Source of the DNA: an uncultured Verrucomicrobiota bacterium
GTDB lineage: Bacteria > Verrucomicrobiota > Kiritimatiellia > CAIVKH01
Length of the DNA: 64,000 bases
Reading direction: 5' to 3'
Assembly (NCBI GenBank): GCA_937873455.1
Contig: CALMYG010000160.1
Location: 1-64,000 of the forward strand
The notes under the pieces: generated by a model
Told to the model about the DNA's origin: nothing
The model's database searches: none
The model's input: only the letters and a program-made list of their open reading frames with translations
Translations under genes and position numbers: made by a program
Shown: positions 35,232-61,046 of the stretch, piece by piece
Layout of the letters: each line of letters starts with the position of its first letter
Numbering within the stretch: the first letter of the stretch is position 1

Positions 35232-35240
35232 ATGTTCCGG

Positions 35241-35363
35241 GGGCGCATCTCCGAGTTTGTGCAAAGGTTCCTTGTAGGCCGGGGCTCTGTCCCCGGCGCC
35301 TCTCCGCCGACCGCAGAGGGTCGGCCTACACCAAGGCACTTGTCAAAACTCGGAGATGCGCCC
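35241..35363. mobile_element. MITE-like element, copy 1 (123 bp)
   Basis: Identical to 39789-39911. Terminal inverted repeats of 18 bp (GGGCGCATCTCCGAGTTT at the left, its complement at the right) and an inner inverted pair TGTAGGCCG/CGGCCTACA. Flanking 9-mers ATGTTCCGG and CTGTGCCGG match at 7 of 9 positions, consistent with an aged 9-bp target duplication. No coding capacity, so movement would need a transposase supplied elsewhere. Confidence 0.8.
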
Positions 35364-35390
35364 CTGTGCCGGTAACTATCCAGAAATGAT

Positions 35391-35419: not shown

Positions 35420-35443
35420 TGCCAACCTTCGTCAATAAAAGAT

Positions 35444-35505
35444 GGGGGGTTAGCTCAGTTGGGAGAGCGTCCCGACATGGTCATGTCGGGAAGGTCGAGG
35501 GTTCA
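35444..35505 (+). pseudogene. Broken tRNA-like gene with expanded anticodon arm
   Basis: The 5' half equals the intact tRNA-Ala 91 bp downstream (GGGGGGTTAGCTCAGTTGGG, then AGAGCG), but the anticodon arm is 22 bases instead of 17: TCCCGACATG and CATGTCGGGA around a central GT, almost perfectly self-complementary. It breaks off inside the T-loop after GAGGGTTCA; the 3' T-stem, acceptor strand and CCA are missing. It cannot make a normal tRNA. Confidence 0.75.
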
Positions 35506-35534
35506 TCGCCTTGATCGTTGATAATTTAAAAGAT

Positions 35535-35610
35535 GGGGGGTTAGCTCAGTTGGGAGAGCGTCTGAATGGCATTCAGAAGGTCGAGGGTTCAACTCCCTTA
35601 CCCTCCACCA
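35535..35610 (+). tRNA. tRNA-Ala (anticodon GGC)
   Basis: 76 nt. Acceptor GGGGGGT/ACCCTCC contains the alanine identity pair G3-U70; anticodon stem TCTGA/TCAGA with loop ATGGCAT gives GGC; T-loop TTCAACT; discriminator A; CCA encoded. Reads GCC and GCU. Its CCA end is followed directly by the GIY-YIG reading frame. Confidence 0.93.
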
Positions 35611-35876
35611 TCTTTTTCGTTTATGTCCTCCAAAGTTTATCGACCGGCAAGTTCTACATTGGTCAGTGCGACCATTTGATTGAGCGTTTCCGCGAACATC
35701 AGGCCGGATATACTACTTCTACGCGAGGTAGGGGACCCTGGTGGGTGCCCTATTTTGAATGGTATCCAACACGCTCGGCGGCCATGCGTCGGGAGCGACA
35801 GTTAAAACGTCTAAAAAGTCATACGCGGATTCGCTCGTTGATTTCAACGTTGTACCCCAATGTCGATTTACGCTAG
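35610..35876 (+). CDS. Small GIY-YIG nuclease-domain protein, copy 1
   Basis: Conserved sequence runs from FFVYVLQSLSTGKFYIGQ through DHLIERFREHQAGYTTSTRG, GPWWVPYFEWYPTRSAAMRR and ERQLKRLKSH to a TAG at 35874-35876. This is a stand-alone GIY-YIG domain of the UPF0213/UvrC-N type: the VYV…YIG strand pair, catalytic Arg in ERFREH and the metal-binding Glu in AMRRERQLK are present. About 88 residues. No ATG, GTG or TTG lies between the tRNA and the domain: the possible starts are a non-standard ATC formed by the last base of the tRNA CCA plus TC (35610-35612) or a TTG inside the tRNA D-loop (35550). The frame stays open through the whole tRNA. Coordinates given assume the ATC. Confidence 0.65.
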   Translation: MFFVYVLQSLSTGKFYIGQCDHLIERFREHQAGYTTSTRGRGPWWVPYFEWYPTRSAAMRRERQLKRLKSHTRIRSLISTLYPNVDLR

Positions 35877-35939
35877 GGAGAGCGTCCCGACATGGTCATG
35901 TCGGGAAGGTCGAGGGTTCAACTCCCTTACCCTCCACCA
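35876..35939 (+). pseudogene. 3' tRNA fragment with expanded anticodon arm, copy 1
   Basis: Starts in the D-loop (GGGAGAGCG) and runs through the 22-base self-complementary anticodon arm to an intact T-arm, acceptor 3' strand and CCA. It lacks the 5' acceptor strand and the D-stem 5' half. The first G overlaps the stop codon of GIY-YIG copy 1. Confidence 0.8.
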
Positions 35940-36205
35940 TCTTTTTCGTTTATGTCCTCCAAAGTTTATCGACCGGCAAGTTCTACATTGGTCAGTGCGA
36001 CCATTTGATTGAGCGTTTCCGCGAACATCAGGCCGGATATACTACTTCTACGCGAGGTAGGGGACCCTGGTGGGTGCCCTATTTTGAATGGTATCCAACA
36101 CGCTCGGCGGCCATGCGTCGGGAGCGACAGTTAAAACGTCTAAAAAGTCATACGCGGATTCGCTCGTTGATTTCAACGTTGTACCCCAATGTCGATTTAC
36201 GCTAG
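35939..36205 (+). CDS. Small GIY-YIG nuclease-domain protein, copy 2
   Basis: Identical to copy 1, beginning at the CCA of the tRNA 3' fragment and ending with TAG at 36203-36205. No standard start codon lies between the tRNA fragment and the domain; the only upstream in-frame ATG (35759) is inside copy 1. Translation is therefore doubtful unless a non-standard start is used. Confidence 0.5.
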   Translation: MFFVYVLQSLSTGKFYIGQCDHLIERFREHQAGYTTSTRGRGPWWVPYFEWYPTRSAAMRRERQLKRLKSHTRIRSLISTLYPNVDLR

Positions 36206-36268
36206 GGAGAGCGTCCCGACATGGTCATGTCGGGAAGGTCGAGGGTTCAACTCCCTTACCCTCCACCA
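36205..36268 (+). pseudogene. 3' tRNA fragment with expanded anticodon arm, copy 2
   Basis: Identical to 35876-35939, exactly 329 bp downstream; again overlaps the preceding GIY-YIG stop codon by one base and ends in CCA. Confidence 0.8.
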
Positions 36269-36447
36269 TCTTTTTCGTTTATGTCCTCCAAAGTTTATCG
36301 ACCGGCAAGTTCTACATTGGTCAGTGCGACCATTTGATTGAGCGTTTCCGCGAACATCAGGCCGGATATACTACTTCTACGCGAGGTAGGGGACCCTGGT
36401 GGGTGCCCTATTTTGAATGGTATCCAACACGCTCGGCGGCCATCTGA
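36268..36447 (+). pseudogene. GIY-YIG nuclease-domain frame, copy 3, truncated
   Basis: Matches the other copies up to PTRSAA, then ends at TGA 36445-36447. The helix with the catalytic-site Glu (MRRERQLK) and the C-terminal 28 residues are lost, so the product could not be an active nuclease. Confidence 0.8.
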
Positions 36448-60850: not shown

Positions 60851-60926
60851 GGGGCGGTAGCTCAGTTGGGAGAGCGACGCGTTCGCAATGCGTAGGTCGA
60901 GGGTTCAACTCCCTTCCGCTCCACCA
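60851..60926 (+). tRNA. tRNA-Ala (anticodon CGC)
   Basis: 76 nt. Acceptor GGGGCGG/CCGCTCC carries the G3-U70 alanine identity pair; anticodon stem ACGCG/TGCGT with loop TTCGCAA gives CGC; T-loop TTCAACT; discriminator A; CCA encoded. Reads GCG. Confidence 0.93.
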
Positions 60927-60940
60927 GCCTTCGCTCCCTC

Positions 60941-61046
60941 GCGGGGCTCGGGAGCTACGGCTGGCAAGCCAGCAAGACCGGACGCGGGGCTCGGGAGCTA
61001 CGGCTGGCAATCCAGCAAGACCGGAGTGCGGAACTCGGGAGCTGCC
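60941..61046 (+). repeat. 43-bp tandem repeat, about 2.5 copies
   Basis: Unit starting GCGGGGCTCGGGAGCTACGG at 60941 recurs at 60984 with one difference and partly at about 61028. Each unit contains CTGGC and GCCAG-like inverted pieces. Lies between tRNA-Ala(CGC) and the outer-membrane protein gene; no coding potential. Confidence 0.8.

Follow-up and report, generated by a model that had tools for sequence, protein, structure and literature searches.

In classical homing, insertion destroys the site. In the REP/RAYT and IS200/IS605 systems, short hairpins are tied to a small HUH transposase, and nuclease-free derivatives occur. Among the systems associated with tRNA genes, SegB is a free-standing GIY-YIG homing endonuclease of the tRNA cluster of phages T4 and T6 (PMC2988022; PMC13096335) and is reported to cut in the tRNA region, to spread by homing and to drive tandem amplification of the tRNA-segB segment in phage T6. 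Integrative elements and prophages at tRNA genes carry tyrosine recombinases and have a partial tRNA at one end, with examples spanning 9-23 kb (PMC9897764).

The array analyzed here lies at 35444-36447 of the window (the whole 64,000-nucleotide stretch, from an uncultured Verrucomicrobiota bacterium), and its layout was verified by sequence, ARAGORN, and repeat tools. On the + strand, a broken tRNA-Ala, a linker, and an intact tRNA-Ala(GGC) are followed by GIY-YIG frame 1, a tRNA 3' part, frame 2, another 3' part, and frame 3 (Table 1). The three frames are identical over 868 bp with a period of 329 bp, and their stops are TAG codons, each overlapping or abutting the following tRNA fragment. 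The original prediction of an array whose frames begin at CCA ends and whose stops touch the next tRNA piece was borne out by these analyses. Its layout and period also stand, but it had missed the 22-nt hairpin TCCCGACATGGTCATGTCGGGA, which replaces the anticodon arm in the broken copy (35444-35505) and in both 3' parts; these parts, at 35876-35939 and 36205-36268 with D-arm piece and hairpin included, start inside the D-arm (GGGAGAGCG), and frame 3 is truncated. The intact tRNA-Ala keeps its normal anticodon arm, TCTGAATGGCATTCAGA. In frames 1 to 3, ATC stands at the position of the ATG of relatives, its A being the final base of the CCA, and since all three copies therefore have no canonical start codon, they may be translationally crippled or inactive. 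The array is a tRNA-Ala member of the family described below, in which units on the 3' side are repeated in tandem and a single fragment lies on the 5' side. The number of copies is unsure because the assembly is of the metagenome type, with 197 contigs, and identical 329-bp repeats are hard to resolve.

Table 1. Coordinates of the tRNA-Ala/GIY-YIG array and of a probable relic in the window
Feature	Position	Strand	Evidence
Displaced tRNA-Ala copy, 5' part (tRNA positions 1 to ~26-28)	35444..35469	+	100% match to intact tRNA over 28 nt
Hairpin TCCCGACATGGTCATGTCGGGA replacing anticodon arm, upstream broken copy	35470..35491	+	10-bp perfect stem; motif only at tRNA loci in window genome
Variable loop and T-arm start of upstream broken copy, ending in T-loop	35492..35505	+	Match to tRNA positions 42-57 from 35490
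Linker; its end TAAAAGATG repeats sequence preceding first copy	35506..35534	+	Direct repeat 35436-35471 / 35527-35562
Intact tRNA-Ala(GGC), CCA encoded	35535..35610	+	ARAGORN; Rfam RF00005, 64.9 bits
GIY-YIG frame 1, ATC start position, TAG stop	35610..35876	+	PF01541, E=2.1e-11, 44 bits
D-arm piece GGGAGAGCG of displaced copy 2	35876..35884	+	Repeat family D2
Hairpin TCCCGACATGGTCATGTCGGGA replacing anticodon arm, displaced copy 2	35885..35906	+	Motif and stem analysis
tRNA-Ala 3' half (from ~position 44) and CCA, copy 2	35907..35939	+	100% match to intact tRNA over 35905-35939
GIY-YIG frame 2	35939..36205	+	Identical to frame 1 (repeat comparison)
D-arm piece GGGAGAGCG of displaced copy 3	36205..36213	+	Repeat comparison
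Hairpin TCCCGACATGGTCATGTCGGGA of displaced copy 3	36214..36235	+	Motif and stem analysis
Second tRNA-Ala 3' half and CCA, copy 3	36236..36268	+	Match to intact tRNA
GIY-YIG frame 3, truncated	36268..36447	+	Identity to other frames ends ~36443
tRNA-Ala(CGC), then 43-bp repeated leader, no nuclease frame; probable second-subfamily relic	60851..61043	+	Resemblance by eye

Like SegB, the array places a GIY-YIG gene beside tRNA genes, and the tandem amplification that we propose below parallels SegB-driven tRNA amplification. SegB, however, is a phage gene between tRNA genes, and the text consulted on it does not describe a half-tRNA, an anticodon hairpin, or a regenerated tRNA; among solved structures, the window-type protein is nearest to UPF0213/SLX1, and its close relative L113 had no match in the phage collection. 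Endonuclease-bearing introns are likewise selfish elements aimed at the tRNA anticodon region, but introns splice out whereas the tRNA in the present case is broken next to an intact copy, and an Rfam scan of the window at gathering thresholds found tRNAs alone and no group I intron ribozyme core. The likeness to integrative elements lies in the restored tRNA and in the partial tRNA left at the other end; the differences are a unit of 0.3-0.4 kb in which the GIY-YIG frame is the sole recognizable gene and no recombinase is found, the hairpin at the junction, and the tandem units. Hairpins combined with a small nuclease-type protein and nuclease-free derivatives recall REP/RAYT and IS200/IS605, but the nuclease is GIY-YIG and not HUH, the unit holds no TnpA_REP gene, and the hairpins sit in tRNA anticodon arms, with a motif restricted to tRNA loci rather than dispersed. 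None of the known kinds tested fits the element. The literature searched, largely outside subscription journals and preprints, contained no description of a tRNA-splitting GIY-YIG cassette, in agreement with the original prediction, which knew of no described system with this layout.

The protein is a member of the GIY-YIG superfamily, with a match to PF01541 and with Y10, Y21, R31, H35, and E67 invariant in nine relatives, and its AF2 model is confident (pLDDT of 92). The nearest solved sequences and folds are those of UPF0213 (YhbQ-type; 1zg2) and SLX1 (4xlg and 7cq3), with I-TevI matched weakly, and the nuclease resembles UPF0213/SLX1 more than I-TevI. Since SLX1 cuts branched DNA (PMC6902002), recognition of a folded tRNA gene by the nuclease is plausible by analogy. 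Five between-genome pairs allowed dS to be computed and gave dN/dS values of 0.05-0.22; dS was near saturation in most of these five and saturated in the other pairs, and the nuclease genes of relatives look to be under purifying selection. A point against the mobile element proposed below is that the protein is a single domain of 75-100 amino acids with no obvious DNA-binding module. A phage or plasmid gene was rejected as a candidate, given that tblastn with L113 in the phage collection and with a close relative in the plasmid set gave no match, and so was a known anti-phage defense gene, with no PADLOC model matching.

In the 4.1-Mb window genome, a Pfam scan returned nine GIY-YIG matches, namely, UvrC, the three window frames, and five others. 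At L001, a tRNA-Met is followed by a nuclease and a tRNA-Met 3' part with a hairpin, while L002 shows a tRNA-Met 5' part with a hairpin, a nuclease, and then an intact tRNA-Met. L003 consists of two tRNA-Ser 5' parts with hairpins, an intact tRNA-Ser, a nuclease, a hairpin 3' part, and another nuclease; L005 begins near a contig end. Searching the same genome for the sealed-arm motif GTCCCG...CGGGAAGGTC revealed two further tRNA-Pro loci. One (C43) has four upstream half tRNA-Pro units of 99 bp each and no nuclease that we could see, and the other (C179/C89) has upstream half tRNA-Pro units of 88 bp and, by eye, a decayed-looking nuclease after the tRNA. Among these tRNA-Pro loci (L161, L164, and L171, comprising C43 and C179/C89), the D-arm at C179/C89 is also replaced, by a TCCCGC...GCGGGA hairpin. 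Because comparable arrangements are found with tRNA-Met (twice) and tRNA-Ser in the same genome and in dozens of relatives, the window arrangement is far beyond chance.

We surveyed the surroundings of small GIY-YIG genes from three sources: 37 further genomes; relatives of the window protein named in GTDB, which belong to Kiritimatiellae, Verrucomicrobia, and Lentisphaerota and include the isolate Dyadobacter jejuensis; and Bacteroidota loci. A locus was counted as linked if an intact tRNA lay on its strand no more than 300 bp away. In the combined set, 52 of 87 non-YhbQ loci were linked, another 11 were interrupted by the end of a contig within 400 bp, and the remaining 24 had no intact tRNA within 300 bp. 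Three of these 24 (L119, L229, and L231) have a tRNA at a longer distance or across an array, and L056, L063, and the borderline L070 have tRNA 3' parts on the + strand. YhbQ-type loci were mostly unlinked (2/9 in the combined set and 0/11 in a further set), and none of the 26 UvrC control loci had a tRNA within 300 bp. The tie between GIY-YIG and tRNA genes that the original prediction had proposed, together with a genome search, is supported by the survey. Same-strand proximity by chance would apply to ∼0.2% of random positions, a hand estimate from ∼50 tRNAs in 4 Mb. Within the window subfamily, a same-strand tRNA-Pro or tRNA-Ala lies upstream in 9 of 10 relatives, the tenth starting at a contig end. 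The recurrence spans about 14 tRNA isotypes and several bacterial phyla. The roughly two dozen small GIY-YIG loci with no intact tRNA within 300 bp count against a mobile element, as do the missing ATG of the window genes and the lack of a half-tRNA at some of the linked loci, often those of the Pro/Ala "FTGFTE" type; since several tRNA-linked nuclease clades have no visible halves, more than one architecture may be involved.

Partial tRNA copies were sought at the loci that have an intact tRNA. Upstream 5' parts end at tRNA positions 25-35 in 25 of 28 cases (18 of them at 25-28, with Ser and Tyr at 34-35), the remaining three ending at 21-22, and downstream 3' parts start at 35-48 in 19 of 22 cases (Leu at 35), the other three starting at 57-64, placing the breaks within the anticodon arm or next to it. 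In 43 of 45 junction windows, there was a perfect stem of 5 bp or more, and the mean was 7.1 bp versus 3.4 bp in shuffles. The frequent stem TCCCG...CGGGA would fill stem positions 27-31/39-43, and this core is common to the unrelated nuclease clades linked to Pro, Ala, and Met and lies inside longer hairpins for Ser and Tyr. The resulting cassette of ∼0.3-0.4 kb unites a single-domain GIY-YIG gene of about 90 codons with a GC-rich hairpin and half of the target tRNA gene. It occurs in two layouts: in one, an intact tRNA and a nuclease precede the hairpin and a displaced 3' half; in its mirror, a displaced 5' half and a hairpin precede the nuclease and the intact tRNA. Some loci show both sides, and the clearest mirror case is L231, where three units of 5' part, hairpin, and nuclease lead to an intact tRNA-Pro. 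Tandem arrays reach seven nuclease copies, and nuclease-free half-tRNA arrays also exist. Closed off by the hairpin, the displaced half lacks an anticodon. At L115, the upstream 5' part joined to the downstream 3' part folds as a cloverleaf with its anticodon hairpin closed, which would follow from an element lodged within a single former tRNA gene.

Motif scans for GTCCCG...CGGGAAGGTC in four genomes (G000, which is the window genome, G015, G023, and G038) found it only at tRNA loci, and a dispersed palindrome was rejected on that basis. In a scan of 289 genomes of the phylum, nearly all remaining matches were single and about as frequent as in the reversed control. The Leu/Tyr double-hairpin type is not exclusive to tRNAs and also occurs at sites without an ARAGORN tRNA in G001, G025, and G027 (L121, L123, L125, L127, L129, L131, L132, L134, and L135).

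The tRNA isotype follows the nuclease clade, as a tree of 84 proteins suggests: 24 isotype changes were needed, whereas 500 shuffles required 36.2 on average and never fewer than 31. This is support rather than proof, as the tree was built from few columns, many of its forks are unresolved, and the shared ancestry of related genomes could contribute. Empty sites were found for two tRNAs. Genome G007 has seven nuclease units behind tRNA-Leu(TAA), and in G005, of the same genus, tRNA-Leu directly abuts the flank found after the G007 array. For tRNA-Pro(GGG), orthology was established by an upstream gene common to 18 Dyadobacter-group genomes, among which three carry the nuclease (three copies in G314 and one each in G305 and G309), two carry remnants (the nuclease 3' end in G306 and a 5' part with a damaged hairpin in G312), and 13 carry neither. 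In G307, nothing separates the tRNA from the upstream flank, which is 85% identical over 541 bp, and immediately behind the tRNA the sequence matches that of G314. These alleles show gain and/or loss and would be compatible with either direction, with or without horizontal transfer; as a point against mobility, vertical inheritance with losses could account for the patchy distribution. A search for an orthologous empty site for the window array found none: the tRNA-Ala(GGC) of six family relatives is single and intact with no halves nearby, but its surroundings differ, and purF of G001 had no adjoining tRNA.

We also scanned 396 Bacteroidota genomes with a pattern of a tRNA-Pro 5' part plus hairpin. 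Apart from G038, there were matches in seven genomes, six of them at tRNA loci, and the reversed control gave no match. A nuclease is present at L282 and L287; L285 and L288 have hairpin 3' parts behind tRNA-Pro with no nuclease found; L283 and L286, the "solo" form, look like complete tRNA-shaped genes whose anticodon arm is sealed, and a nuclease was not found near them; and L289 is unrelated.

Taken as a whole, these sequences point, with a probability of about two in three, to a minimal mobile element, homing-like in character, that would enter tRNA genes at the anticodon arm, bring a half to replace the broken one, and multiply in tandem. The nuclease would cut within the anticodon arm, either in the tRNA gene as such or in a cruciform or branched form that the gene adopts, and repair from an element-bearing copy, with the tRNA halves as homology, would insert the cassette and regenerate a complete tRNA on one side, the intact tRNA thereby preserving host tRNA function. 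That tRNA could still be cut beside homologous halves, and further rounds of cutting and copying would add units, which is our proposed origin of the tandem arrays of up to seven copies and of the nuclease-free half-tRNA arrays. The hairpin might be the element end, a seal of the displaced copy against recutting, or the recognized structure. Present and absent alleles at one site in relatives are found here, as for homing endonuclease genes. At occupied loci, however, a complete tRNA remains and only the displaced copy is sealed, so that, unlike in classical homing, the kept tRNA would still be a target, which may tell against this reading. The original prediction fared well in that a half-tRNA is duplicated with the nuclease at many loci while an intact tRNA is kept and in that relatives with the tRNA alone could be found for tRNA-Leu (G005) and tRNA-Pro (Dyadobacter group). 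It had also called the locus a tRNA-targeting homing element that regenerates the tRNA 3' end: the tie to tRNA genes is supported, but the break is in or next to the anticodon arm and not at the 3' end, in the mirror form it is the 5' half that is duplicated, and "homing" is a conjecture about how the element would work. We lean, somewhat beyond an even chance, toward an undescribed class of cellular mobile element, defined by anticodon-arm invasion, a structure-specific minimal GIY-YIG nuclease, a TCCCG...CGGGA-type hairpin, a carried tRNA half, and tandem self-amplification. As part of the same claim, this class would be common in Kiritimatiellae, occur in other Verrucomicrobia and Lentisphaerota, be present in Bacteroidota, and have nuclease-bearing, nuclease-free, and solo forms.

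The nuclease could instead act on the tRNA itself as an RNase in defense or stress, with the hairpin half-tRNAs as decoys or regulators and the linkage reflecting function. The tRNA shape of the hairpin copies, which have no anticodon, would fit such a role, as would cotranscription of the nuclease with the tRNA (inferred from the layout) and an isotype specificity expected of an enzyme that knows its own tRNA, and a TrmH-type tRNA methyltransferase domain fused to an Slx1-like GIY-YIG protein is on record (PMC1564403). Evidence against it comes from the occupied, relic, and empty states of one orthologous tRNA, from halves without a nuclease, and from solo sealed tRNAs, as well as from the absence of a PADLOC match and the fact that the nearest solved relatives of known activity are SLX1 DNA-structure nucleases; we regard this explanation as unlikely. 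The SLX1-like fold, of a structure-specific family, also suits a hairpin-driven single-strand transposition of the IS200/IS605 or REP-like kind, in which GIY-YIG would be the strand cutter, the hairpin the recognized DNA end, and tRNA genes would be targeted through their own hairpin folding. In its favor, the TCCCG...CGGGA hairpin keeps reappearing at junctions of unrelated nuclease clades and tRNAs, but the unit encodes neither TnpA nor a RAYT-like protein, the GTCCCG...CGGGAAGGTC motif occurs at tRNA loci instead of being dispersed, and the replacement tRNA half points to homology-based repair, leaving transposition of this kind improbable as well.

Near-identical units within arrays might also come from ordinary tandem duplication, by unequal recombination, of a nuclease adjacent to a tRNA by chance. 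This would leave unexplained the recurrence at ∼14 isotypes and across phyla, the anticodon-arm breakpoints, and the hairpins, and we disfavor it as very improbable. An artifact of metagenome assembly is hardly credible even given the 197 contigs and identical repeats of the window assembly, as arrays occur at L088 in a 668-kb contig of a 5-contig genome and at L231 in a 252-kb contig, and the isolate Dyadobacter jejuensis has half-tRNA arrays. On the recurrence with other tRNAs, in an isolate, and in long contigs, chance or artifact was rejected.

If a mobile element of this kind is indeed at work, it would be among the smallest to carry its own nuclease, attacking an essential gene while replacing it, and, should homing be proven, it would form a new class within homing-endonuclease elements. 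It may account for many of the truncated copies of tRNAs in these phyla and for contigs that break at tRNA genes, and it would give a function to small "GIY-YIG family" proteins otherwise annotated by domain alone. As isotype follows clade, the loci would offer natural nuclease-target pairs for studying site finding by a minimal GIY-YIG domain. The finding of nuclease-driven tandem tRNA amplification made with SegB would be extended to bacterial chromosomes.

Two other features were observed in the window. At 35240-35364, ∼80 bp upstream of the array, lies a MITE-like sequence with a 19-bp perfect outer inverted repeat around a 26-bp inner arm pair. The 43-bp leader behind the tRNA-Ala(CGC) resembles, by eye, the leaders of Ala-linked GIY-YIG genes (L005, L061, and L077), and the segment is probably the relic of a second GIY-YIG subfamily within the same window. 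In IMG/VR, we found one weak relative, L110, a viral contig with a GIY-YIG match from 2001, 93 bp downstream of a tRNA-Ala(TGC) at 1835-1908, a pairing reminiscent of SegB-type linkage in phages.
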